Positions 24,718 to 57,550 of a stretch of 64,000 bases of DNA are shown one piece after another. The DNA comes from a virus. The notes under the pieces were generated by a model that worked only from the letters and a program-made list of their open reading frames with translations, was not told where the DNA came from and did no database searches. The stretch lies in IMG/VR virus record IMGVR_UViG_3300030104_002421, positions 1-64,000 of that record; one strand, 5' to 3'. The translations under genes were made by a program, and so were the position numbers. The number at the start of each line of letters is the position of its first letter. Within the stretch, counting starts at the first letter, position 1.

Positions 24718-27700
24718 ATGCCAACAGCTTTACAATTAAGAAGAGGAACTACTTCGCAGAATAATTCCTTTACTGGTGTCGTTGGTGAGGTAAGTGTAGA
24801 TACTGATAAAGATACCCTACGAGTGCATGACGGCTCAACTGCCGGTGGATTTGAGGTGGTAACGGCAACAGCTACTCAAACCCTTACAAACAAGACACTA
24901 ACAGCACCAACTATTTCAAGTGCCGCTTTTTCAGGCGCTTCATTTACATTTGAAGGTGCTACATCAGACAGTTTCGAAACAACTCTAACTGCTACAGACC
25001 CAACAGCAGATAGAACAGTAACTATCCCTAACGCTACTACTACACTAGTAGGAACGGATACATCTGACACTTTAACAAATAAAACATTAACAAGTCCAGT
25101 TATTACAACAATGACTGGATCATCTATAACTTTAGATAGTGCAGGCGATATTAATTTAGACGCTGATGGTGCTAACATTACAATGAAAGATGGTGGTACA
25201 ACTGTACTAGATTTCGTATTAGATGGTACAACATTAGTAACATTAGACGCAGGTGGTGATATAGCATTAGACGCTGATGGCGGAGATATATTTTTTAAAG
25301 ACGCAGGTACTACTTTTGGTAGTGCAACAAACACAGGTGGTAATTTAATAATAAAATCAGGGACAACTACAGCGGCAACATTTAGTGGTGCCAATGTAAC
25401 ATTAGCAGGTACTGTTGCTTCAGGTGCAATAACATCATCAAGTACAGTAACCGCTACACAAGCAATATTATCAAATGCAAGTCCATTAGTATTTGAAGGT
25501 TCTACAGCAGACAGTTTTGAAACAACTATTGCAGTTACAGACCCAACAGCAGATAGAACAATTACTATACCTAATGCAACAGACACATTGGTAGGTAAAG
25601 CAACTACTGATACACTTACAAATAAAACACTAACAACTCCAGTAATTGCTGAGATTGATAGTGGAGCAAATATTACATTAGACGCAGCTGCTGATATCGT
25701 ATTAGACGCTGGTGGTGCTGATGTAACTTTAAAAGATGATGGTACAACATTTGGTTCATTAACTCAAGCTTCTGGCGAATTAGTTATTAAATCAGGTTCT
25801 ACACCTACGACAGCAATCACAATGTCAGGTGCAAATGTAACTATCGCAGGTAACTTAACAGTTTCAGGTTCTACAACTACAGTAGATTCCTCTACAGTTA
25901 ACTTACAAACAGGTTTCGTTTTTGAAGGTTCAAGTGATGACAGTTTTGAAACAACATTAACTGCTACTGACCCTACAGCAGATAGAACAATTACTTTACC
26001 AAACTTAACTGGTACAGTATCATTGATAACTGCTACAGAAACATTAACAAACAAAACACTAACAACTCCTGTAATTGCAGAAATAGATAGTGGTTCAACA
26101 ATCACACTAGACGCAACAACAGACATTATACTAGACGCTGATGGTGATAATATCACAATGAAGGCTGCAGGTACTACTGCCCTTGACTTTGTACTAAATG
26201 GTGCAACTGATATTACACTAGACGCTCCAGGAGATATTAAAGTGGACGCTGGTGGCGGAGACATTTTCTTCCTAGATGACGGTACTACTTATGGTAGTGC
26301 AACCAATAACTCTGGTAATCTAATCATCAAGTCAGGTACAACTACGGCGGCAACCTTCTCTGGTGCCAATGTAACTCTGGCAGGAACAGTAGATTCCGGT
26401 GCTATCACTTCATCAAGTACAGTAACCGCTACAGGTTTTGTAAACACAGGTTCAATAGTATTTGAAGGAAGTACAGCAAACAGTTTTGAAACAACTTTAG
26501 GTGTTGTAGACCCAACAACAGACAATACAGTTAATATTGCTAATGTTGGAGGTACTTTAATACCATTTGCTGCCGCTTCAACAACGGCAATTGCGGCTAC
26601 ACCGGCAGAATTAAACATAATGGACGGTGGTGTTACAGTAGGTACAACTGCTGTCGCTGATGATGATGGTATCGTAACAAATGACGGCGGTACTATGAAA
26701 CAAACTAAAGTACAGACATTTGCTACATATTTCGCAAGTGAAATTACTAACATGGGTAATCTTGTAGAAAGTGGTGCTTTAAATGCAGGTTCAATCACAT
26801 CAGGTTTTGGTAACATCAACAATGGTTCATCAACAATAACAACTACTGGTGCAGTATCAACAGGTGCTTTAACAACAACAGGTATAACAAACACAGGTTC
26901 AATTGTCTTCGAAGGTTCAACGGCGGATTCATTTGAAACAACTTTAGGTGTTGTTGACCCAACTGCTGACAGAGCAGTTAATGTTGCAAACGCTGCTGGT
27001 ACATTACAACCATTCGCAACTGCTTCTACAACGGCGATTAGTGCAACTGTAGATGAAGTTAACTTAATGGATGGTGGCACATCACCAGGTACAACGGCAG
27101 TAGCAGACGGAGATGGTATCGTAACCAACGATGGTGGTACTATGAGACAAACTACAGTACAAACTTTCGCAACTTACTTTGCCGCTGAAATCACAGCAAT
27201 GACTAACCTAGTAGAAACTGGTGCCTTAGACGGTGGTTCAATCACTTCAGGTTTTGGTAACATAAACATAGGTTCTAGTACAATAACAACTACTGGTGCA
27301 GTAGGTACTGGTGTAATAACATTAGCCGCAGGCGGAGCAACTACCGCAGGTAGTATCTTATTCAAAGAAGGTACAGATAACGGAACAAATTCCGTAACTT
27401 TGATAGGTCCTGTTTCTACGGCAGATATAACAGTTACTTTACCTACACAAGCAGGTACGGTTGTTGTATCAAACACTACGGACGGCAATGATGTTCAACT
27501 AGATAGTTTAGGATTGAACACGGCTGCTTCAGGTACTGCTGGAGAATTAAGGGCAACAAACGATATTACTGCCTTCTATTCATCTGATATTGCTCTCAAG
27601 GAGAACATTGTTAACATTCCAAGTCCAATGGACTTAATAGGTAAGATTAACGGTGTATTCTTTGACTGGAAACAATCATTCATAGATGAAAAAGGTGGCG

Positions 27701-27888
27701 AAGACGGATACTTTGTTCGTAAGAATGATGTTGGTGTAATCGCACAAGATGTAGAAAAAGTTATGCCTGAAATCGTTGCAACAAGAAAAGACGGTGTTAA
27801 GGCAGTTAAATATGATAGACTTACTGCTCTCTTAATTGAAGCAGTTAAAGACTTACAAGACCAAATAACAGAATTGAAAAATAAATAA
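24718..27888 (+). CDS. Tail fibre protein with S74 intramolecular chaperone domain (B)
   Basis: The protein has 1056 residues. The N-terminus M-P-T-A-L-Q-L-R-R-G-T-T, then V-G-E-V-S-V-D-T-D-K-D-T-L-R-V-H-D-G, is the standard attachment segment of phage fibres with a hyaluronidase-like N-terminus. Five full fibre units and one degenerate one follow. Two nearly repeated blocks of about 120 residues contain T-N-D-G-G-T-M-x-Q-T-x-V-Q-T-F-A-T-Y-F-A. The C-terminal S74 domain contains S-S-D-I-A-L-K-E-N-I, G-V-F-F-D-W-K, V-G-V-I-A-Q-D-V-E and K-Y-D-R-L-T-A-L-L. The 25 residues before it are nearly identical to those of the 637-residue fibre, a likely recombination junction. Confidence 0.88.
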   Translation: MPTALQLRRGTTSQNNSFTGVVGEVSVDTDKDTLRVHDGSTAGGFEVVTATATQTLTNKTLTAPTISSAAFSGASFTFEGATSDSFETTLTATDPTADRTVTIPNATTTLVGTDTSDTLTNKTLTSPVITTMTGSSITLDSAGDINLDADGANITMKDGGTTVLDFVLDGTTLVTLDAGGDIALDADGGDIFFKDAGTTFGSATNTGGNLIIKSGTTTAATFSGANVTLAGTVASGAITSSSTVTATQAILSNASPLVFEGSTADSFETTIAVTDPTADRTITIPNATDTLVGKATTDTLTNKTLTTPVIAEIDSGANITLDAAADIVLDAGGADVTLKDDGTTFGSLTQASGELVIKSGSTPTTAITMSGANVTIAGNLTVSGSTTTVDSSTVNLQTGFVFEGSSDDSFETTLTATDPTADRTITLPNLTGTVSLITATETLTNKTLTTPVIAEIDSGSTITLDATTDIILDADGDNITMKAAGTTALDFVLNGATDITLDAPGDIKVDAGGGDIFFLDDGTTYGSATNNSGNLIIKSGTTTAATFSGANVTLAGTVDSGAITSSSTVTATGFVNTGSIVFEGSTANSFETTLGVVDPTTDNTVNIANVGGTLIPFAAASTTAIAATPAELNIMDGGVTVGTTAVADDDGIVTNDGGTMKQTKVQTFATYFASEITNMGNLVESGALNAGSITSGFGNINNGSSTITTTGAVSTGALTTTGITNTGSIVFEGSTADSFETTLGVVDPTADRAVNVANAAGTLQPFATASTTAISATVDEVNLMDGGTSPGTTAVADGDGIVTNDGGTMRQTTVQTFATYFAAEITAMTNLVETGALDGGSITSGFGNINIGSSTITTTGAVGTGVITLAAGGATTAGSILFKEGTDNGTNSVTLIGPVSTADITVTLPTQAGTVVVSNTTDGNDVQLDSLGLNTAASGTAGELRATNDITAFYSSDIALKENIVNIPSPMDLIGKINGVFFDWKQSFIDEKGGEDGYFVRKNDVGVIAQDVEKVMPEIVATRKDGVKAVKYDRLTALLIEAVKDLQDQITELKNK

Positions 27889-27900
27889 GGAGACATTACA

Positions 27901-28782
27901 ATGGCAACACCTAACGCTCAGATAGCATTATCCCAGGTCAATGATGAATTAGGAGTATCTCCTACTTCAACAGCGATTAATATGGGTGCTACAAATGTAA
28001 GAGCTCTTGCAGGAATACCTTCAGGTGCAATCGCAATGAGTGATTTACAACAAAAGACGAATGAATACACATATACATATCTTCTTGTTGCAGGTGGCGG
28101 TGCCGGTGGTGAAAACCAAGGTGCTGGAGGTGGTGCAGGAGGATATATTTCTGCTTCAATCACTAGTGCGCCAGGTATACCATATACTGTAACAGTAGGT
28201 GGTGGTGCCTCACCAGGAACTGGATTTGCAGGTCCAGGTAATAATGGTGGTGCAGGTGCGTTTGGAAATATTCCAGCTTCAGGTGGCGGCGGAGGCGGCT
28301 CAGAGAATGGTGCTACAGGTAAATCAGGAGGTTCTGGTGGCGGAGGTCGTCAAGGTTCTGGTGGTGGTTCAGGAATTACTGGACAAGGAAATCCAGGTGG
28401 TTCAGGTACAAGTGCAAACGGCGGAGGCGGCGGTGGTGCGAATACAAGTGGTACTGGTGGTGAAAATGGTCAAGGTGGTGCAGGTAAAACATTCCCTGGC
28501 GATACAATAGGTTATGCAGGTGGCGGCGGAGGCGGTCATTCAAACTCTAACGCAACTCAAGGTGGAGGTGCAGGTGGTGTTACATCTGCTCAATCAGGTA
28601 TAGCAAACAGAGGCGGCGGAGGCGGCGGTGAAAGACAATGGAATGGTTCTGGACAAGGTGGTTCAGGTCGTATTGTTGTAGTTTACCCAGGCACAGCACA
28701 GAAAGGTACAGGTGGTACTGAATCCATTATAGGTTCAACTAGAGCACACACATTCAATTCTTCAGGAACATGGACATCATAA
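27901..28782 (+). CDS. Glycine-rich tail adhesin-like protein (gp38-type)
   Basis: The protein has 293 residues. The first about 60 (S-Q-V-N-D-E-L-G, then M-S-D-L-Q-Q-K) form an attachment domain. Residues about 65-265 are packed with poly-Gly runs separated by short variable loops containing Asn, Ser, Glu and aromatic residues. This is the architecture of the distal adhesin of T2/S16-type phages (gp38), in which Gly-rich strands form a polyglycine-II core and the loops read the receptor. The C-terminus returns to ordinary beta sequence (R-I-V-V-V-Y-P-G). It follows the largest S74 fibre by 12 bp, as an adhesin follows its fibre. Receptor binding is therefore likely, but not shown. Confidence 0.75.
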   Translation: MATPNAQIALSQVNDELGVSPTSTAINMGATNVRALAGIPSGAIAMSDLQQKTNEYTYTYLLVAGGGAGGENQGAGGGAGGYISASITSAPGIPYTVTVGGGASPGTGFAGPGNNGGAGAFGNIPASGGGGGGSENGATGKSGGSGGGGRQGSGGGSGITGQGNPGGSGTSANGGGGGGANTSGTGGENGQGGAGKTFPGDTIGYAGGGGGGHSNSNATQGGGAGGVTSAQSGIANRGGGGGGERQWNGSGQGGSGRIVVVYPGTAQKGTGGTESIIGSTRAHTFNSSGTWTS

Positions 28783-28783
28783 T

Positions 28784-29350
28784 ATGGCACACTTTGCAGA
28801 ATTAGACGCAACAAATAAAGTTTTAAGAATAGTAGTAGTAGATGATAGTCATGTATCTGCTAATATGGCAACTGATGGTGAAACTTGGTGTGCAAATAAT
28901 ATCGCTGATGATCCAACAATACCAGATGTTGGTGGTGTATATCCAGGTGTTGCATGGAAACAAACATCTTACAATAATAATTTTAGAAAAAGATTTGCTG
29001 CTGTTGATGGTTATTTCATTGACGATAGTGGTGAGGGATACTTTACAACTGCTAAACAATTTAGTGATTGGGTATTAAATACTGCTGATGGTGCATACTA
29101 TCAACCTCTTGCTACACCAACAACATTGACATTTGCTGCTGACAGTAAAACATACAAATATACTATAGAATGGGACCAATCAAATACTAGATGGTTAGCT
29201 TATGAAGTTCACGGTGAAGTAGGCGCATATTATAGAAGTAGAGTAAATAACAATGATGTAAATGATTTAACGGAAGAAGCAATATCTAGTCCAACATCTG
29301 CTCAACTTGCTGCTAAAGTTTGGAATACAAGCTCATCTGCTTGGGAATAA
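28784..29350 (+). CDS. Tail-fibre-associated structural protein (188 aa)
   Basis: The start M-A-H-F-A-E-L-D-A-T-N-K-V-L-R-I-V-V-V is a very common opening in marine T4-like phages, followed by the typical A-W-K-Q-T-S-Y-N-N-N-F-R-K-R-F-A segment near residues 58-73. These proteins are annotated as virion structural or fibre proteins. It is the last gene of the fibre block. Its stop is only three bases from the stop of the converging oxygenase cluster, with no terminator visible between. Confidence 0.75.
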   Translation: MAHFAELDATNKVLRIVVVDDSHVSANMATDGETWCANNIADDPTIPDVGGVYPGVAWKQTSYNNNFRKRFAAVDGYFIDDSGEGYFTTAKQFSDWVLNTADGAYYQPLATPTTLTFAADSKTYKYTIEWDQSNTRWLAYEVHGEVGAYYRSRVNNNDVNDLTEEAISSPTSAQLAAKVWNTSSSAWE

Positions 29351-29353
29351 ATC

Positions 29354-29974
29354 TTAAAGATATTTTAACGCTGATTTAGGTATACCTACAAAAGGTCTTC
29401 CATCATATCTATTAGTTTCTGATTGAGGTGCAGAAGCGTCATTGTAATGCAAGAATACTTGACCACATGTTTCGCCATAGAATGCTTCACGCCAATGTTC
29501 TAACTCACAACCTTTATACATTAAACAATCTCCAGGTTCTAACATAACTTTAATACCCGGTTTACCTACATCACCAGATGGTTCTACAAAAATTGGCCAC
29601 TCATCACCACCTAAATTCATAGTAGCAGAAACAGCACATGATGGTCTATCTTTATGTCTGTGTAAAATATCTCCGTGTTTATATAAACGAGTGTAAGTAT
29701 ATGTTTCAATTAATTTCATATCTATCGCTTCCTCTAACTTAGGTTTTACATGTTGTAATAATGTTGCCATTAACAAATCATCATAATTTGCCCATGTACC
29801 AGGTATCTGTGGGTCACCTAATACACCCCAATGGTCATTCCAAGGAGATATTTGCCTACTTTCAAACATCAATCTTGTAATTCTTCTTTTATTTAAAAGA
29901 TACTTGTAAGCAATCTCAGCGATTTCAGGTGTGATAGTATTTTTTATTACTTGATAATTATTTTCTTTAAACAT
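29354..29974 (-). CDS. 2OG-Fe(II) oxygenase-like protein (last of the six-gene cluster)
   Basis: The protein has 206 residues from ATG 29974, preceded by G-A-G-G; an in-frame start 15 bases upstream is less likely. It has an H-K-D iron triad pair in L-H-R-H-K-D-R-P-S-C-A near residue 113, a double-stranded helix pattern after it, E-P-G-D-C-L-M-Y-K-G at about 155, and the third ligand in C-E-L-E-H-W-R. It ends with S-A-L-K-Y-L. This is the layout of 2OG-Fe(II) dioxygenases. The substrate is unknown. It is the last gene of the minus-strand cluster. Confidence 0.75.
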   Translation of the reverse strand: MFKENNYQVIKNTITPEIAEIAYKYLLNKRRITRLMFESRQISPWNDHWGVLGDPQIPGTWANYDDLLMATLLQHVKPKLEEAIDMKLIETYTYTRLYKHGDILHRHKDRPSCAVSATMNLGGDEWPIFVEPSGDVGKPGIKVMLEPGDCLMYKGCELEHWREAFYGETCGQVFLHYNDASAPQSETNRYDGRPFVGIPKSALKYL

Positions 29975-29981
29975 TATATCC

Positions 29982-30458
29982 TCAATCAATAAAGTAAGTT
30001 AAAGTCATTCTTGCATTGTTTATATTATCACCATAAAATCCTTCTGGACTATGTGGTGTACTAGAAGAATAACTTATAAATCTATTATACTTGTTTTCAA
30101 TTATTGTTTTCTTTTCATTATTATATAGTATTGTTCCAGAATTAGGTTTAGGATTATCATGTAAATAAATTAAACCGGCAGTAGAATGGTCGTCTGTATG
30201 AATACAATTCTCATCTATTTGTAAATCACCTGTTTGATATGCAAACCACAGATATATTTTACCACTATTCATGTTTAGTGTTTCTAGTATTTGGCGTGAT
30301 ACATCCTCATATATACTATCTGGTACATCTGCTCTCATACCTCTAAAGTGTGAGGTGCCAGTATTACTTGTATAATCTTGTCCTAGTGCAATCTGACGAA
30401 TGTAATCTACATCATCAAAAAAATTATTTTTTATGAGGTCTATATTTGTGTGCTTCAT
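29982..30458 (-). CDS. DUF6445-like 2OG-Fe(II) fold protein
   Basis: The start is taken at ATG 30458, where the conserved part begins (M-K-H-T-N-I-D-L-I-K-N-N-F-F); 158 residues. It has the pattern of DUF6445 proteins: I-H-T-D-D-H-S-T-A-G-L-I-Y-L, then G-T-I-L-Y, then N-R-F-I-S-Y-S-S-S-T-P-H-S-P-E-G and a final A-R-M-T-L-T-Y-F. The H-x-D, distal His and Arg are therefore all present, as expected for an active Fe(II)/2OG site. It overlaps the preceding gene by 35 bp. A second member of the same family is at 56828-57550. Confidence 0.72.
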   Translation of the reverse strand: MKHTNIDLIKNNFFDDVDYIRQIALGQDYTSNTGTSHFRGMRADVPDSIYEDVSRQILETLNMNSGKIYLWFAYQTGDLQIDENCIHTDDHSTAGLIYLHDNPKPNSGTILYNNEKKTIIENKYNRFISYSSSTPHSPEGFYGDNINNARMTLTYFID

Positions 30459-31098
30459 CTTGCCAATACCAAACTTTTTTGTTTTTGTTTTCAATCTCAA
30501 CTTTAGGTAATCCATCTGGGTTTGGTTCTTTACCAAACTGTTCTTCTTGCAAATGATTCCACCAACCTGTTGCAATATATTTGTCTTGCGTTAGTGATGG
30601 TATACCATGGTGTGTATGTGTCCATGCTGAAGGCCAAATTAATGTTAAACCTTTTATAGGCGTTTTTCTAATTTTTTGATACCAAAATTCTGTATATCCT
30701 TCATCTGTTACTGTATTTAAAAAGGTCATAAAGACTAAATGTCTTCTAACATTAACTTCATGCCCAGAGTTTTCATAGTGCCATTGTGGATAACCTTGAC
30801 CTGGTGCATAGTGTTGAATATTTAATTTTTCCCATATAACAAATTTTTCTTGTCCTTCATCTGCCCAACGATACATTTGACCATATTGGTCTAAACAACT
30901 TTGTAACATAGATACATATTTTTTTATTGTATCATTTTCATCAGCAGAGTAATCACTATCTGTACTTGCTTTTATGGATGGGTTAATTTTATTTTCACCT
31001 ATTCTACCTGGTGTTTTTTTAGGATTATTTTTATGTAATTCTATTAGTTCATCACACATACCAGGATCAATTGCATATTCTCCTATAAATGTTGTCAT
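30424..31098 (-). CDS. 2OG-Fe(II) oxygenase-like protein with H-x-E
   Basis: The protein has 224 residues. The core is P-G-Q-G-Y-P-Q-W-H-Y-E-N at about residues 98-109, R-R-H-L-V-F-M-T-F-L-N-T-V, E-G-Y-T-E-F-W, then P-S-A-W-T-H-T-H-H-G-I near 160 and Y-I-A-T-G-W-W. The order resembles prolyl-4-hydroxylase-type enzymes, but the usual H-x-D is H-Y-E here. H-x-E is accepted in some 2OG enzymes. Start and stop overlap with the neighbours by 4 and 35 bp, which places it firmly in one transcription unit. Confidence 0.7.
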   Translation of the reverse strand: MTTFIGEYAIDPGMCDELIELHKNNPKKTPGRIGENKINPSIKASTDSDYSADENDTIKKYVSMLQSCLDQYGQMYRWADEGQEKFVIWEKLNIQHYAPGQGYPQWHYENSGHEVNVRRHLVFMTFLNTVTDEGYTEFWYQKIRKTPIKGLTLIWPSAWTHTHHGIPSLTQDKYIATGWWNHLQEEQFGKEPNPDGLPKVEIENKNKKVWYWQDEAHKYRPHKK

Positions 31099-31658
31099 AC
31101 TATTTTAAACTCCTTCATATCTGTTATAATATAATTGCCTGCTACACTATATCTTTCTTCATTTGTTTTCAGTATCTTATGTGGTGTGTTAGATAGAAAT
31201 ATTAATAAACTACCTTGTTCAACTGGCATACTATGACTTGTCATGTTGAATATATTATATCCTTTGACTTGTGGTCTTAATCCGTCATTTGGCCACTTTT
31301 GAAACTGACAACTTTCTCCTTTATTTATATACAGTACAAAACTGTATGTTGCGTTATTGTGTATATGTACTTCACCTTCCGTGTTAGGTTCATATTTTGT
31401 TGACCAAGACCTAGTAAGTTTTATTGGCGTATCAAACATCATTACATTATCATTAAACGCTTGTACTTCTTTTTCTACTTGATGTTTTATATATGAAAAT
31501 TTATCAAGTAATTGTTCATCAACAGATTGATAACCAAATTCTATTTTACGATATTCTGTTTTCTTAACCCAATCTATAAATTCTTCCGTTAAATGTATCT
31601 TTGTAAATCCTAAAGGTTTACTGAATAATGGTTGTATTTTCAATTCTTGCGAGTTCAC
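31095..31658 (-). CDS. 2OG-Fe(II) oxygenase-like protein (2OG-FeII_Oxy_5 type)
   Basis: The protein has 187 residues. The start is a GTG at 31658 behind A-A-A-G-G, overlapping the previous gene by 41 bp; a TTG 15 bases later is the alternative. The N-terminus I-Q-P-L-F-S-K-P-L-G is typical of the group that begins with a P-L-F-x-x-P segment. The core is E-V-H-I-H-N-N-A-T-Y-S-F-V-L-Y-I-N and L-L-I-F-L-S-N-T-P-H-K-I-L, then E-E-R-Y-S-V-A-G-N. The substrate is unknown. Confidence 0.72.
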   Translation of the reverse strand: MNSQELKIQPLFSKPLGFTKIHLTEEFIDWVKKTEYRKIEFGYQSVDEQLLDKFSYIKHQVEKEVQAFNDNVMMFDTPIKLTRSWSTKYEPNTEGEVHIHNNATYSFVLYINKGESCQFQKWPNDGLRPQVKGYNIFNMTSHSMPVEQGSLLIFLSNTPHKILKTNEERYSVAGNYIITDMKEFKIV

Positions 31659-32175
31659 TATCTAATATACCTTTCATTTCAACATTAAAAGATATGATTG
31701 TTTTTTCTTTATCTAATAACATTTTTGGTGCTCTATGTATTGTATGACTAGGAAACATAACAATATCTCCTTCTTTTGCTTTGATAGGAAACACACCTAA
31801 TTCTCTATCATATAATTCTGTTTGTGGTGTACCTTCAGGAAGATTTACATAATAAACACCTGTAAAGTTTCTACCATGTATATGCCAACCGTGTGTAGAA
31901 TTTTCATTGTATGATTGAAACCATATCTCAAATAATTCATAATTTGCATAACCGGCAGATTGTATCATTTCTAATAAATGAGGTTTAAAGAAAGGTAGAA
32001 AAAATTTTACCCAAGGTCTTTCATAATTGTTGGCGATATCCCAATCTGTTTTTGAGATATTATCATTATAGTATTTGTCATTACTTTGTTTTGGTTCTGC
32101 CCAACCATTTTTGATATGTTGTTGTAATTGACTTTTAATTAAAATGTGTTTGTCTAAAGGTAGTTTAATAATCAT
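31618..32175 (-). CDS. 2OG-Fe(II) oxygenase-like protein (2OG-FeII_Oxy_5 type)
   Basis: The protein has 185 residues from ATG 32175, which overlaps the upstream stop as ATGA. The core is T-H-G-W-H-I-H-G-R-N-F-T-G-V-Y-Y-V-N-L (about residues 107-125), followed by the G-D-I-V-M-F-P-S-H-T-I-H-R-A-P turn near 147-161 and T-I-I-S-F-N-V. This is the standard family arrangement with both His sites. Second gene of the minus-strand cluster. Confidence 0.75.
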   Translation of the reverse strand: MIIKLPLDKHILIKSQLQQHIKNGWAEPKQSNDKYYNDNISKTDWDIANNYERPWVKFFLPFFKPHLLEMIQSAGYANYELFEIWFQSYNENSTHGWHIHGRNFTGVYYVNLPEGTPQTELYDRELGVFPIKAKEGDIVMFPSHTIHRAPKMLLDKEKTIISFNVEMKGILDSELARIENTTIIQ

Positions 32176-32771
32176 TTGTAAGGGTATCCTAGATTCCATA
32201 TTACTAAAGAGTGTCTTACACCCTTGGTAACTGGTGTAACTCTATGTTTAACAAAAGAAGGAAATATACAAATAGACCCTCTTTCTTTTATTTCATTTAC
32301 TTGAAATACACCATTTGGTGTTTCAAACTCTAAATCACCACCCTCATATTCGCCAGGGTGTGATAATTGTAATGTACAGGATAACTTTCTTATCTTACCA
32401 TGATAATTTACATTGTCATTAGTAAAAGGTTGTACATCTTGGTCAGCATGCCAATGATAGTATTGATTTAGTTTATAACGAGTAAATTGTGCAGGTTCTG
32501 AAAAGTCCCAATCAAAGTTCCATTTAGCATTTCTATTTGCTTCATCTACAAGTGGGTGTATCTCACTATAAACCCAAGGTTCTGATATCCAAGATACATT
32601 GCTGTCTCTATGTAGTTTGATTTCTTCTTGTTTTTCCTCTGCTTCCTTTGCAGATATTTGACCTGTAGTAGCAAAATCTTCTTGTAGACCTTGACCAAAC
32701 TGTACAATTTCATCACATATTCTAGGTGGAAGCGCTGCTGTAAAATAATAATAATAGTTTTCCAATATCAT
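32172..32771 (-). CDS. PKHD/prolyl-4-hydroxylase-type 2OG-Fe(II) oxygenase
   Basis: The protein has 199 residues from ATG 32771 (M-I-L-E-N-Y-Y-Y-Y-F); a longer frame exists but would run into the promoter of gp13. It has the clearest active site of the cluster: Y-H-W-H-A-D-Q-D with H-x-D, then the G-E-Y-E-G-G-D-L-E-F strand, I-C-I-F-P-S-F-V-K-H-R-V with the distal His, and G-V-R-H-S-L-V-I-W with the 2OG-binding Arg. PKHD-type hydroxylases are usual in T4-like marine phages; the substrate is unknown. It is the first gene of the cluster, and no clear promoter was found for it. Confidence 0.82.
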   Translation of the reverse strand: MILENYYYYFTAALPPRICDEIVQFGQGLQEDFATTGQISAKEAEEKQEEIKLHRDSNVSWISEPWVYSEIHPLVDEANRNAKWNFDWDFSEPAQFTRYKLNQYYHWHADQDVQPFTNDNVNYHGKIRKLSCTLQLSHPGEYEGGDLEFETPNGVFQVNEIKERGSICIFPSFVKHRVTPVTKGVRHSLVIWNLGYPYK

Positions 32772-32800: not shown

Positions 32801-33628
32801 ATGGCACAGAATAATCCAATTACCACAAGAGAGACTATGAAACAGTATTGCCTACGAGCATTAGGTAAACCTGTTATAGAAATCAATGTAGAAGACGACC
32901 AAGTAGAAGATAGAATTGATGAAGCGTTACAATACTTTGCTCAATACCATTATGATGGCGTTGAAAGAATGTATTTAAAACATGTTGTAACTGCCGCTGA
33001 TATTACAAGAGCAAGGTCAGACGAAACATTGTCAACAGTTACAGATACAGCAGACAGTACGGTCACATCAGTTTGGACAGAAGGTAAGAATTATATACCT
33101 TTGCCATCTAGTGTTATGTCAGTAGTAAATGTATTTCCATTTACAGATAAAGCGGCATTAAACTTGTTTGATGTAAGATATCAATTAAGATTAAATGATT
33201 TGTACGATTTTTCATCTACAAGCATTATACACTATGATATGACATTAAGACATTTAGATTTATTAGACCATATCCTTGTAGGTGAAAGACCTGTAAGATA
33301 TAATATGCATAAAAACAGATTGTATATTGATATGGATTGGGCAAATGATGTAGCAGCAGGTGATTATCTAGTCATAGAATGTCATAGAAAATTAAACCCT
33401 TCTACTTTTACAGATATTTTTGATGATATGTTTTTAAAGAAATATACTATTCAATTAATTAAAAGACAATGGGGTGCTAACTTAATCAAGTTTCAAGGCG
33501 TTGCAATGTTAGGTGGTGTCGCATTAAATGGCGAACAACTATATACACAGGCGCAAGAAGAAATAAATAAACTAGAAGAACAAATACAATTATCATACGA
33601 ATTACCACCACAATATATGGTAGGATAA
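32801..33628 (+). CDS. 13: Neck protein gp13
   Basis: The protein has 275 residues (T4 gp13: 309). The N-terminus I-T-T-R-E-T-M-K-Q-Y-C-L-R-A-L-G-K-P-V-I-E-I-N-V, with D-Q-V-E-D-R-I-D-E-A-L-Q-Y-F following, is the conserved start of marine T4-like gp13. It forms the ring that closes the filled head and joins the tail, together with gp14 encoded four bases downstream. The adjacent gp14 and gp15 genes confirm the assignment. Confidence 0.9.
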   Translation: MAQNNPITTRETMKQYCLRALGKPVIEINVEDDQVEDRIDEALQYFAQYHYDGVERMYLKHVVTAADITRARSDETLSTVTDTADSTVTSVWTEGKNYIPLPSSVMSVVNVFPFTDKAALNLFDVRYQLRLNDLYDFSSTSIIHYDMTLRHLDLLDHILVGERPVRYNMHKNRLYIDMDWANDVAAGDYLVIECHRKLNPSTFTDIFDDMFLKKYTIQLIKRQWGANLIKFQGVAMLGGVALNGEQLYTQAQEEINKLEEQIQLSYELPPQYMVG

Positions 33629-35347: not shown

Positions 35348-35749
35348 ATGAAAAAAGTAGAAGACAAGTTAAACGAGATACTTGATATATCTGAAAAGGT
35401 AGAAAAGGTTGAAAGTAAACCAATCATACCCAGACCAAAAGAGGATGAAGATGTATCTGCTGATTACAAGTACAGTAGGGAAAACCTATATAATCTAGTA
35501 GAAAGAGGACAGGACGCCATTGATGGCGCCCTTAATCTTGCAAAAGAAACAGACCACCCACGAGCATATGAGGTTGCAGGCAATCTAATTAAAAATGTGG
35601 GTGATGTAACAGATAAACTTATACAACTACAAGAGAAAAAGAAAAAACTAAATGATGATACTGTGAAAGGTCCTAATAAGGTTGAAAATAACTTATTCGT
35701 AGGTTCTACGGCTGAGTTACAAAAACTTATAAAAAAGAAAGATGGGTAG
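35348..35749 (+). CDS. 16: Small terminase subunit gp16
   Basis: The protein has 133 residues (T4: 164). It has the helical gp16 centre: Y-S-R-E-N-L-Y-N-L-V-E-R-G-Q-D-A-I-D-G-A-L-N-L-A-K-E, then P-R-A-Y-E-V-A-G-N-L-I-K. This corresponds to the central coiled-coil of T4-type small terminases, which assemble as rings that stimulate gp17. Its 3' end overlaps the following oxygenase gene by 8 bp, so an unrelated enzyme separates it from gp17. Confidence 0.88.
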   Translation: MKKVEDKLNEILDISEKVEKVESKPIIPRPKEDEDVSADYKYSRENLYNLVERGQDAIDGALNLAKETDHPRAYEVAGNLIKNVGDVTDKLIQLQEKKKKLNDDTVKGPNKVENNLFVGSTAELQKLIKKKDG

Positions 35750-36356
35750 TATAACTATTAATACTTGGATTAATGATACAAATTTATGGACAACGCCTTT
35801 ATTTAATTGCAATGTACCAATTAAACCTGACTGGTTAAAGTATATCAAAGATAATACAGATAAGTTATGGGACGATACACAAAACCCTAACGGTTCATAT
35901 ACAACAAAAACTGATTTACATACACATAAAATATTTGAACCTTTAAATCAAATATTAAAACAAGTTAGTATTACTACCTTTGGTAAAAATGTAGAAAGTG
36001 TAAAAGTGGCAAACATGTGGGCAAATATACTGAAGCGTGGCGAATATCATTTATTACATACACACAATGAACACACCATGAGTGGTGCATATTACTTAAA
36101 AGTACCAGAAAATTCAGGTCAATTATATTTTAGAGACCCAAGACCAAATAGTAATTCTTGGACACAAAAATTTTTAGATAAAGGTAACATGAGGTTTTTT
36201 GATGTAAAAGAAGGCGACTTATATTTTTGGCCGTCTTTTTTAGACCATGGTACAACACCACACGGTTCTGACGAAGAAAGAATTACAATTAGTTTTGATT
36301 TAGATTATTCAGGACCTAACTATAAATTTGGAGATAACGGATACAATGGACAGTAA
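35742..36356 (+). CDS. 2OG-Fe(II) oxygenase-like protein between the terminase genes
   Basis: The protein has 204 residues. The start overlaps gp16 by 8 bp and the end overlaps gp17 by 11 bp. The core is L-L-H-T-H-N-E-H-T-M-S-G-A-Y-Y-L-K-V-P near residues 105-123, then G-D-L-Y-F-W-P-S-F-L-D-H-G-T-T-P, then E-R-I-T-I-S-F-D-L. This is the 2OG-FeII_Oxy_5 pattern. Its substrate is unknown. Being locked between gp16 and gp17 it must be expressed with the packaging genes, which hints at a role linked to late structural or packaging proteins (inference). Confidence 0.8.
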   Translation: MGSITINTWINDTNLWTTPLFNCNVPIKPDWLKYIKDNTDKLWDDTQNPNGSYTTKTDLHTHKIFEPLNQILKQVSITTFGKNVESVKVANMWANILKRGEYHLLHTHNEHTMSGAYYLKVPENSGQLYFRDPRPNSNSWTQKFLDKGNMRFFDVKEGDLYFWPSFLDHGTTPHGSDEERITISFDLDYSGPNYKFGDNGYNGQ

Positions 36357-54510: not shown

Positions 54511-56223
54511 ATGATTTTATTTGAGACGATTAGGTGGAAGAACTTTCTTTCCACCGGCAATACAGGTATAGAAGTTAAACTAAATGAACACCAAGATACA
54601 TTAATTGTAGGACACAATGGTGCAGGTAAATCAACAATACTTGACGCCTTGTGTTTTGGTCTTTTTAATAAACCTTTTAGAGATATTAAAAAAGAACAAA
54701 TGATTAATAGTGTTAATCTAGGTGGCACAGAAATAGAAATAGAATTTAGTATATCAAAAAATAGATATAAAATTAAACGAGGTATTAAACCTAATTTATT
54801 TGAGATATACTTAAATGATGAACTTGTTAACCAAGACGCTTCTATTGCTGACCAACAAAAATATTTAGAACAACAAATACTTAAATTTAATTATCGTAGT
54901 TTTACACAGGTCGTAATACTAGGCAGTAGTGCATTTGTACCTTTTATGGAATTAAAATCACCACATAGACGAGAAGTTGTGGAAGATATACTTGATATAA
55001 AGATATTTTCTGTAATGAATATGTTAGTGAAGATACAAATAAAAGAAATACAAGACCAGTTAAGAGATATTGATAGAGAGATTGAGATTACTAAAAATAA
55101 AGTAGAGACACAGGAAAAATATATTGAACAAACAGGTAAACAAACACAATCTACAATAGATGATTATAATACAAAGATAACAGAAAACAAAGAAGCATTA
55201 GAAAAATACAATGACCATAAAAAAGAGTTAGAGAAAGCATTAGTAAAAGAAAAAGAAAAAATACTAGATGAAGAAAAGGTAAGACAACAAGTTAAAAAAT
55301 TAAATAGTTTTGAAACACAATTTGAAAGTAAGGTAAAGGAGTGTACTAAACATAAAAGATTTTATGAAAGTAATGATAACTGTCCTACATGTCAACAAGA
55401 TATTAATCCAGAGTTTAAGTCAAAAAAGATATCTAACGAGAACAATGAGATAATTAAATTTAATCAGGCATTAGAAGATGTGGCAAAAGAGATATCATCT
55501 AAACAAAGACGATTACAAGCAATTGCTTCTGTATATGAAGATATGAAAGTTACAGAAATTGATATTGCTAAGTTTGAACAATCATCAAATGAATTACAAA
55601 ACATTAATCGTAAACTAGAAAGTCAAGTTAATACTCTTATGCAACAAAGTGAAGATACAGGTAGTGCTAAAGGTAAATTAGAAACATATCAATCAATGTT
55701 AGAAAAGTATGAAGAAGAACAGTTACGAAAAAAAGAAGAACTAGATTATTTACAGGCAGCAAGAGTAATGTTAGCAGATACAGGTATCAAAACAAAAGTA
55801 ATAAAACAATATTTACCTATTATGAACCAGTTAATTAACAAGTATCTTGCAAGTATGGATTTCTTTGTTAACTTTAAACTAGATGATGAGTTTAGAGAAA
55901 TAATACGAAGTAGATTCCGTGATGACTTTAGTTATAGTAGTTTTAGTGAAGGTGAGAAGATGAGAATAAATCTGGCATTATTGTTTACATGGCGTGCTAT
56001 TGCAAAGATGAAAAACAGTATATCTACCAATCTATTAATGTTAGATGAAATATTTGATAGTAGTTTAGATGGTCAAGGTACAGACGATTTCTTAAAGATA
56101 CTGAATACACTAGAAGGTGAGAATGTGTTTATCATATCACATAAGACAGATTTGATGGCAGATAAGTTTAAAAACATAATGAGATTTGAGAAATATAAAA
56201 ACTTTACAAGGATAGTAGAATGA
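54511..56223 (+). CDS. 46: Recombination endonuclease subunit gp46 (Rad50/SbcC type)
   Basis: The protein has 570 residues (T4: 560). Walker A is G-H-N-G-A-G-K-S-T (34-42), a coiled coil spans about 180-470 with a zinc-hook C-P-T-C at 291-294, the signature is F-S-E-G-E-K-M-R-I-N and Walker B L-L-M-L-D-E-I-F-D. It is the ATPase partner of gp47. The stop overlaps the next gene (ATGA). Confidence 0.95.
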   Translation: MILFETIRWKNFLSTGNTGIEVKLNEHQDTLIVGHNGAGKSTILDALCFGLFNKPFRDIKKEQMINSVNLGGTEIEIEFSISKNRYKIKRGIKPNLFEIYLNDELVNQDASIADQQKYLEQQILKFNYRSFTQVVILGSSAFVPFMELKSPHRREVVEDILDIKIFSVMNMLVKIQIKEIQDQLRDIDREIEITKNKVETQEKYIEQTGKQTQSTIDDYNTKITENKEALEKYNDHKKELEKALVKEKEKILDEEKVRQQVKKLNSFETQFESKVKECTKHKRFYESNDNCPTCQQDINPEFKSKKISNENNEIIKFNQALEDVAKEISSKQRRLQAIASVYEDMKVTEIDIAKFEQSSNELQNINRKLESQVNTLMQQSEDTGSAKGKLETYQSMLEKYEEEQLRKKEELDYLQAARVMLADTGIKTKVIKQYLPIMNQLINKYLASMDFFVNFKLDDEFREIIRSRFRDDFSYSSFSEGEKMRINLALLFTWRAIAKMKNSISTNLLMLDEIFDSSLDGQGTDDFLKILNTLEGENVFIISHKTDLMADKFKNIMRFEKYKNFTRIVE

Positions 56224-56831
56224 TAAACTACGAGTTATATCCTTTATTTGCTATGCCTGTATTAAAGGTTACTGAAAAATACAATATGTCAGATAGTGAA
56301 AGAAAGACTATTGAAAGTTTAGAATGGTCACCTAATCCTAATAATTTAATATCTAAAAATAATAATGTATTAACAACAATGAATGAGTTATCTGGTTTAA
56401 GAGATTATGTTTCAAAGTGGGTAAATTTTTATACAAAAGATATTATGAAAATAAAAGATGTTGAATTTTATATAACACAATCTTGGTTTAATGTAACAAG
56501 AAAAACAGAAAGTCATCATACACATACACACCCTAATAGTATTGTTAGTGGAGTTTTCCACCTTGATGATGATTTATCACATATTACTTTTGAAAGAGAA
56601 CGAACAAATGCTACTTTTGATTTAAAACTAAAATATAGTGAATACAATATACAAAATTGTAATGCTTATGATTTTAACACAGACAAAAATACTTTGATAA
56701 TATTTCCATCAAAACTACCTCATAAGGTAAAAGTGAACAATGATAATAGAGATAGATATAGCATGTCTTTTAATACATTTGTTAAGGGGTCAATGGGTGA
56801 TGAAAACGAATTAGACTTATTAGAATTATGA
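56220..56831 (+). CDS. 2OG-Fe(II) oxygenase-like protein (2OG-FeII_Oxy_5 type)
   Basis: The protein has 203 residues, coupled to gp46. The N-terminus Y-E-L-Y-P-L-F-A-M-P-V-L-K is the usual one for this type. The core is H-H-T-H-T-H-P-N-S-I-V-S-G-V-F-H-L (near residues 99-115), then I-I-F-P-S-K-L-P-H-K-V and D-R-Y-S-M-S-F-N-T. A typical family member; substrate unknown. Confidence 0.8.
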   Translation: MINYELYPLFAMPVLKVTEKYNMSDSERKTIESLEWSPNPNNLISKNNNVLTTMNELSGLRDYVSKWVNFYTKDIMKIKDVEFYITQSWFNVTRKTESHHTHTHPNSIVSGVFHLDDDLSHITFERERTNATFDLKLKYSEYNIQNCNAYDFNTDKNTLIIFPSKLPHKVKVNNDNRDRYSMSFNTFVKGSMGDENELDLLEL

Positions 56832-57550
56832 AATATTTTCCTGCCGTTATAGATAATTTTTTTGACAAACCAGATTTGGTTAGAGAGTTTGCTTTATCTT
56901 TAGATTATGCACCTGATGATAAAGGTAGGTGGCCTGGGCAAAGAAGTGAATCCTTGCACATGATAGATTATGAATTGTATATGAGTGTAATGTTAAAAAT
57001 TATGTCCATATATACAGACTTTGCTTATACAAATGTTACTTGGGAAAATGCTTCTCTTTATTTTCATAAGATAAAAGATACAGGCGATAAAGAATTAAAT
57101 AAAGGTTGGATTCATATTGACCAAGATTTTCAATTAGCAGGTCTTTGTTATCTAAATCCTGGTGTAAATGATATGAATTTAGGAACCTCAATTTATTCAA
57201 AAAAAGGATTTCACCAGAAGTTTGAAAGACACCATTATAAACATATGTATTATAAAGGTGAACAAATTAATTTGAATGACTATAAAAAGAAATTAAGTGA
57301 ACACAATAATGAATATGATGAAACAATTAAAATTGGTAATGTATATAATAGAATGATTACTTATGATACATTAGAACATCATACTTTAAATGGGATACCA
57401 AAAGATGAAGAAAGATTAACTATGTTATTGTTTATGGATGGTATTAAACCAGAAGATAATAGATTTCCTAATAACAGAATTAAAGATGTAAAACAATATG
57501 ATAGTTTTATTGAAGAAAGGATTAGGTTTTTAAATGAACATAAAAAATGA
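56828..57550 (+). CDS. DUF6445-like 2OG-Fe(II) fold protein
   Basis: The protein has 240 residues, coupled by ATGA to the preceding gene. It has L-Y-F-H-K-I near 78-83, W-I-H-I-D-Q-D-F-Q-L-A-G-L-C-Y-L-N-P with the H-x-D, G-T-S-I-Y, then N-R-M-I-T-Y-D-T-L-E-H-H-T-L-N-G and E-R-L-T-M-L-L-F. This matches DUF6445 and its smaller relative at 29982-30458. Metal ligands and Arg are preserved. Substrate unknown. Confidence 0.75.
   Translation: MKYFPAVIDNFFDKPDLVREFALSLDYAPDDKGRWPGQRSESLHMIDYELYMSVMLKIMSIYTDFAYTNVTWENASLYFHKIKDTGDKELNKGWIHIDQDFQLAGLCYLNPGVNDMNLGTSIYSKKGFHQKFERHHYKHMYYKGEQINLNDYKKKLSEHNNEYDETIKIGNVYNRMITYDTLEHHTLNGIPKDEERLTMLLFMDGIKPEDNRFPNNRIKDVKQYDSFIEERIRFLNEHKK

Follow-up and report, generated by a model that had tools for sequence, protein, structure and literature searches.

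Of the unexplained genes in marine T4-like phages, those for Fe(II)- and 2-oxoglutarate (2OG)-dependent oxygenases rank among the most common, and they have been assigned to auxiliary metabolism, nitrogen signalling, DNA repair or, where a 'ferrochelatase' accompanies them, iron and haem metabolism. A cluster of such genes is already annotated in the GenBank record of Pelagibacter phage HTVC008M, and Wittmers et al. 2022 (PMC9599517) describe co-located, non-orthologous 2OG genes together with a 'ferrochelatase' in HTVC023P-type phages. A further study treats the families phrog_61 and phrog_2954 and builds on the latter as a ferrochelatase (PMC11561400). Outside bacteriophages, viral Gly/Pro-rich proteins have been suggested as targets of a prolyl 4-hydroxylase of chlorella virus PBCV-1 (cited in PMC9301287). 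Here we analyse an array of six oxygenase-type genes in a 64,000-nucleotide stretch (the window; positions 1 to 64,000 of IMG/VR record IMGVR_UViG_3300030104_002421) of a 146,188-base viral genome, to which HTVC008M is the nearest cultured relative in the phage records searched (gp13 86.5% identical). In our comparisons of ocean phages, oxygenase arrays of this kind travel with glycine-rich tail-fibre-type genes, which suggests that the phage may modify its own fibre tip chemically.

Results

Six distinct oxygenase-type proteins with conserved iron ligands

The array occupies positions 29354-32771 as six consecutive, overlapping minus-strand open reading frames (ORFs), here called g1 to g6 (Table 1), between plus-strand fibre genes, the last of which ends at 29350, and the neck gene gp13, which starts at 32801. 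From g1 to g6 the successive overlaps, stops counted, are 28, 41, 4, 35 and 8 bp. A preliminary description of this DNA had read the six as different members of the 2OG-Fe(II) fold, and Pfam, ligand columns and AlphaFold2 (AF2) models searched with Foldseek bear this out. Family matches and structural models confirm six distinct proteins of predicted double-stranded beta-helix (DSBH) Fe(II)/2OG-oxygenase type, each belonging to a family that keeps its iron ligands. The fold assignment comes from Pfam matches above cut-off for g1 (2OG-FeII_Oxy_3, 2.2e-13), g2 and g3 (2OG-FeII_Oxy_5, 3.4e-11 and 7.1e-7) and g4 (2OG-FeII_Oxy_3, 9.3e-7), and from AF2 models and Foldseek for g5, whose Pfam match to DUF6445 (7e-4) falls below cut-off, and g6, for which a Pfam search matched no family; PHROGs assign all six proteins.

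Ligand columns were counted across all relatives found for each family. The H/D/H ligands of g1 are present in 146 of 147 relatives (HAD..H..R in 143-146), HxE..H..K of g4 in all 30, HxD..H..R of g5 in 95-96 of 96 and HxD..H of g6 in 134-137 of 138; for g6, HKD..H was also scored as invariant. In g3 the pattern HxH..H..R is kept in 52-53 of 53 relatives, and in the g2 family HxD and HxH interchange at the acidic-ligand column (first H 83/83; then D in 46 or H in 36; distal H 81/83). The basic residue that follows the distal His is R or K in g1 to g5, and its place is taken by an invariant Gln in g6. Loss of iron ligands in several members, which the preliminary description had named as the outcome that would undo its reading, did not occur, the caveats being the His of g2 and g3 and the Gln of g6.

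Two narrower assignments were rejected. Although related to PKHD-type hydroxylases (PiuC/YbiX), g1 is not a member of that family, scoring 62.7 bits against NCBIfam PRK05467 where the cut-off is 143. Tandem duplication is not favoured as the origin of the six, which represent no fewer than four sub-families (phrog_61, phrog_81, phrog_1644 and phrog_2954).

The 'ferrochelatase' partner is probably of oxygenase type

The AF2 model of g5 (predicted local distance difference test score, pLDDT, 93.1) has 2OG oxygenases, PiuC and HIF prolyl hydroxylases as its top Foldseek matches, and H87, D89, H136 and R150 are invariant in 41 sequences with only 24% mean column identity. For g6 (pLDDT 87.6), the best Foldseek match in the PDB is the Pseudomonas putida prolyl-4-hydroxylase (P4H; 5e-9). 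Structure-based comparison, proposed in the preliminary description, thus places 2OG oxygenases and prolyl hydroxylases at the head of the matches for both proteins, and these models indicate that g5 and g6 fold like prolyl hydroxylases. Searches of the two profiles against PDB sequences gave nothing significant, the best g5 match being a HIF prolyl hydroxylase (E = 0.29).

Since g6 belongs to phrog_2954 (7e-51) and is modelled as prolyl-hydroxylase-like, the name 'ferrochelatase' published for a partner of phage 2OG oxygenases is probably wrong. No ferrochelatase fold stands among the 50 best PDB matches listed for g6, which are led by 2OG oxygenases with P4H first; no ferrochelatase Pfam domain was matched at E<=1 in 35 members of the g6 family, nor at E<=0.1 in the g6 orthologues of cyanophages S-SM1 and S-SSM5. 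On the modelled fold and the missing domain in these 35 members we rejected ferrochelatase as the identity of g6. The label is at least as old as the entry 'Hyp. with ferrochetalase domain' for T4-GC 615 (PMC3037559). Other oxygenase-type proteins also carry unrelated names: the 'DNA endonuclease' SSM1_053 of S-SM1 (L088:6722-7243) belongs to 2OG-FeII_Oxy_3 (4.7e-10), and g2 is matched by phrog_274, 'DNA endonuclease V', which was grouped with phrog_2297 as misnamed oxygenase families.

The folds also bear on whether the array encodes AlkB/TET-like enzymes of DNA or nucleotide repair or modification. Phage 2OG genes near uvsX, uvsY and uvsW have been interpreted as serving DNA repair (PMC9146016), and paralogues adjoin uvsW in S-RIM phages. 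AlkB and TET Pfam matches are, however, absent in all six proteins, the closest folds of g5 and g6 are mainly prolyl hydroxylases that act on proteins (P. putida P4H bound to EF-Tu, and PHD2), and the neighbours here are fibre and neck genes, so that we consider a repair role highly improbable.

Oxygenase arrays accompany Gly_rich_2 and h188 genes

Directly left of the array lie h188 and glyA, the latter encoding the sole Gly_rich_2 match in the 146-kb genome and separated from the array by one gene. With g6 alone as the query, one arrangement recurs in the loci fetched: h188, then one or two Gly-rich proteins of ~300 amino acids, sometimes a sulfotransferase, g1, variable oxygenases and g6. 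A Gly-rich protein was among the three genes nearest upstream of g1 in 60 of the 61 g6-anchored loci that had sequence there, and the representatives scanned are, like glyA, Gly_rich_2 (PF21722) proteins. Anchoring instead on h188, picked regardless of oxygenases, gave an oxygenase within 4 kb in 64 of 72 loci and a Gly-rich protein in 68 of 72, the exceptions being mostly short contigs. Among 18 whole records, g6 was present in 11, ten of which also encode a Gly_rich_2 protein; where Gly_rich_2 occurs as a single copy (seven records), it lies 0.7-6.3 kb from g6 in genomes of 141-194 kb (combined p = 6e-4, one genome per clade). The linkage of g1, g6 and variable oxygenases with Gly_rich_2 and h188 spans myoviruses, podoviruses and cyanophages. 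The g1-like genes that stand alone in CRP-810, Melnitz-2 and S-H38 lack a Gly-rich protein within 6 kb.

Genes for possible further tailoring occur in some of these loci. In 12 g6-anchored loci (e.g. L014:2126-2908 and L051:5361-6131) a sulfotransferase gene (PF13469) separates the Gly-rich gene from g1, and in S-SSM5 and P-RSM4 the interval from the Gly_rich_2 gene to g1 holds a carbamoyltransferase gene in antisense orientation (L345:4180-5844 and L346:4180-5844). The motif GQG[NYF]PGG is enriched over shuffles (18 vs 0.05 of 193 proteins), and PGG itself is not; we do not claim this proline motif as a modified site, because homology alone could explain it and PGG is not enriched. Pfam finds only Gly_rich_2 in glyA and no Collagen Gly-X-Y domain, and the glyA sequence matches no solved structure in the PDB.

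The enzymes might instead alter the surface chemistry of host or phage, or a small molecule (lipopolysaccharide, a lipid or an amino acid), which would explain their location: the site corresponds to the hypervariable, glycosyltransferase-rich 'host recognition cluster' that pelagimyophages carry between VrlC and gp14 (PMC7029224), and some Foldseek matches (SnoN, FtmOx1, AviO1) act on small molecules. Yet podoviruses also retain the trio of h188, Gly-rich gene and g1...g6, as do cyanophages at other genome sites, and the link therefore tracks the genes and not the island, which leaves surface or small-molecule chemistry an unlikely account.

Array membership varies around a g1 and g6 core

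HTVC008M carries g6, g4, g3, g2 and g1 at the matching site and strand and has no g5. Among other relatives, L097 and L104 have all six genes, L116 lacks g2, a g2-like gene takes the place of g5 in L110, and L118 has an oxygenase array on the other strand that precedes fibre-type genes. The common core is limited to g1 and g6, with g2 to g5 as exchangeable members, and this variation leaves the multistep pathway of the preliminary description unsupported as a fixed one. In the close relative L114 (gp13 85% identical), fibA ends 38 bp before gp13, so that glyA, h188 and all oxygenases are missing as one block; fibA likewise stands directly before gp13 in L142 and L145. Comparison for gain and loss as a unit, also proposed at the outset, thus gives absence as a unit in L114 and varying membership in other relatives. 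Similarly, the description of the genes as inserted antisense is right for the HTVC008M type and fails for S-RSM4, Mosig and podoviruses, in which they run with their neighbours.

Consumption of 2OG normally requires a prime substrate, which counts against a reading of these as auxiliary metabolic genes that deplete host 2OG during infection and thereby change nitrogen signalling or energy supply. Put forward for cyanophages (Sullivan et al. 2010, PMC3037559), 2OG drawdown fails to predict the many divergent active-site variants, the fixed link to fibre genes and the variable membership, and we regard it as very unlikely.

About 19 2OG-type genes occur in the genome, 13 of them dispersed outside the array, and this abundance, together with the membership differences among relatives, would suit a variable hot spot that merely collects common phage 2OG genes. 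Incidental clustering, already weakened, is nonetheless quite unlikely: a run of six has p ~3e-5 to 2e-4 under random gene ordering, the order is kept in HTVC008M, and the g1 and g6 core with its h188 and Gly-rich partners is conserved across unrelated architectures. Elsewhere in the genome, two further DUF6445/g5-like genes at 56220-57550 in the window and at 144010-145271 (L096) each adjoin a 2OG-FeII_Oxy_5 gene; g5-type and Oxy_5-type genes therefore recur as pairs.

Features of the locus

Table 1. Array genes and neighbouring features in the window; spans of array genes are the likely coding spans without the stop codon
Feature	Coordinates	Strand	Description
fibA	24718-27885	+	Long tail-fibre-type, directly upstream of glyA; phrog_8215 5e-169 and several 'long tail fiber distal subunit' families
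glyA	27901-28779	+	Glycine-rich (32% Gly) fibre-type protein; Gly_rich_2 PF21722 5.8e-18; proposed substrate
h188	28784-29347	+	'MAHFAELD' family, phrog_7759 5e-28; constant companion of glyA and oxygenases
g6	29357-29989 (TTG) or 29357-29974 (ATG)	-	phrog_2954 (named 'ferrochelatase'); predicted prolyl-hydroxylase-like DSBH; core member
g5	29985-30458	-	ATG start; DUF6445-like, 2OG oxygenase-type; phrog_1644 (named 'minor coat protein')
g4	30427-31098	-	2OG-FeII_Oxy_3 protein; HxE..H..K
g3	31098-31658	-	GTG start; 2OG-FeII_Oxy_5 protein, phrog_81; HxH..H..R
g2	31621-32199	-	2OG-FeII_Oxy_5 protein, phrog_81; HxH..H ligands
g1	32175-32771	-	ATG start; PKHD/P4H-like 2OG-Fe(II) oxygenase, 2OG-FeII_Oxy_3, phrog_61; core member
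gp13	32801-33625	+	Neck protein (head-tail adaptor), right-hand border; phrog_211 1.6e-42
g7	35742-36353	+	2OG-FeII_Oxy_5, PF13759 6e-23; near neck/terminase genes, outside array; HTVC008M has one too

An alternative TTG start of g1 at 32819 is unlikely, and the listed TTG start of g5 at 30575 would give a 152 bp overlap with g4. In the 30-bp divergent gap, scanning for promoters and terminators gave no more sites than in shuffles. Matches to TATAAATA in the window lie on the plus strand in 12 of 14 cases, one of them just upstream of fibA (24687), and their total is not above chance. Tryptophan halogenase genes occur near the oxygenase arrays of HTVC008M (L085:17764-19158) and S-CREM1 (L090:1664-3268); none was found in the window between g7 and the terminase ORF.

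Discussion

Four lines of support were computed here, namely fold and family, ligand conservation, linkage and the absence of the block as a unit in one relative. On these we lean towards a reading in which the array encodes non-orthologous Fe(II)/2OG oxygenases that would hydroxylate the neighbouring glycine-rich fibre or adhesin post-translationally; fold and gene linkage both point to the glycine-rich protein as the likeliest substrate. The enzymes, most of them resembling protein (prolyl) hydroxylases, would modify residues of one or more such proteins during virion production, with g1 and g6 acting as core enzymes and g2 to g5 swappable, and the set would be inherited, lost and moved along with the Gly_rich_2 gene and h188. 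Adjacent fibres or an adhesin had been named at the outset as one possible target, which the linkage strongly favours: the core follows Gly_rich_2 and h188 into different architectures. In loci with a sulfotransferase gene, sulfation may come after hydroxylation; the sulfotransferase and carbamoyltransferase genes would fit further tailoring of hydroxyl groups. Such modification could tune receptor binding or stability.

Several observations weigh against a glycine-rich substrate or against oxygenase activity in every member. Both g1 and g6 stand beside tail-fibre genes without a Gly_rich_2 protein in S-SM2, and beside fibre genes without one on the 54-kb contig L118, which makes the fibre-gene link broader than the Gly_rich_2 link; conversely, Melnitz-2, S-B64 and P-SSM2 have Gly_rich_2 without g6. 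With neck genes as the anchor, the association of Gly-rich proteins and oxygenases was not significant (p = 0.30), many contigs ending short of the Gly-rich gene, and the locus counts are not independent because the loci are interrelated and some share contigs. At the active site, g6 has an invariant Gln at the position expected for the 2OG-binding Arg, and a conserved HxH...H in g2 and g3 replaces the acidic iron ligand with His.

More speculatively, these loci may represent a mobile tailoring cassette of abundant ocean phages, composed of h188, a Gly-rich adhesin, an optional sulfotransferase, g1, variable oxygenases and g6. Several oxidations, and sometimes sulfation, of the receptor-binding fibre tip would then amount to a combinatorial post-translational code for phage adhesins, a possibility that we raise tentatively. 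If modification does take place, adhesin chemistry would be a further route by which phages vary receptor binding. The link to glycine-rich fibre-type proteins supplies a directly testable substrate in the cultured phages HTVC008M, HTVC023P and S-SM1, and an oxygenase-type phrog_2954 would bear on what has been published about viral ferrochelatase in seasonal marine viromes.

Compared with known systems, the array is closest to gp068-gp072 of HTVC008M (NC_020484), where five of the six recur between fibre/h188 and gp13 with order, strand and position unchanged, at 48-67% identity (g1 56%). It differs from HTVC008M, which lacks g5, has its g6 annotated as 'ferrochelatase', and carries an extra small gene, gp067, as well as PrnA near the terminase. 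In the cyanophages S-SM1, S-RSM4, S-SSM5, P-RSM4 and S-CREM1 and in Mosig EXVC030M, oxygenase runs that include g6 orthologues likewise stand beside Gly_rich_2 fibre-type proteins, but with other members and order, mostly co-directional and partly at other genome sites. The array of S-CREM1 comprises nine oxygenase-type genes, one of them encoding a JmjC_2 protein (L090:6784-7491, 2.8e-16).

S16-type T4-like phages encode a polyglycine adhesin, gp38, beside the long tail-fibre gene, a likeness to glyA that we take as a lead only, glyA having no sequence match in the PDB; we know of no oxygenase partner for gp38. The PBCV-1 enzyme is likewise virus-encoded with proposed viral Gly/Pro-rich targets, but it is a single enzyme of a eukaryotic virus, whereas six divergent enzymes occur here and the linked protein is Gly_rich_2 rather than Collagen. 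HTVC023P-type pelagiphages share adjoining g1 and g6 families with this locus; the available sections of the papers on them (PMC9599517, PMC11561400) present g6 as an iron-chelatase partner and mention no Gly-rich or h188 link, whereas here g6 appears to be oxygenase-type. The literature that we searched held no paper tying phage 2OG oxygenases to glycine-rich fibre-type proteins. The cluster was thus already known as a gene list, and what is new is its testable functional link to the Gly-rich and h188 genes, together with the probable correction of one published function.

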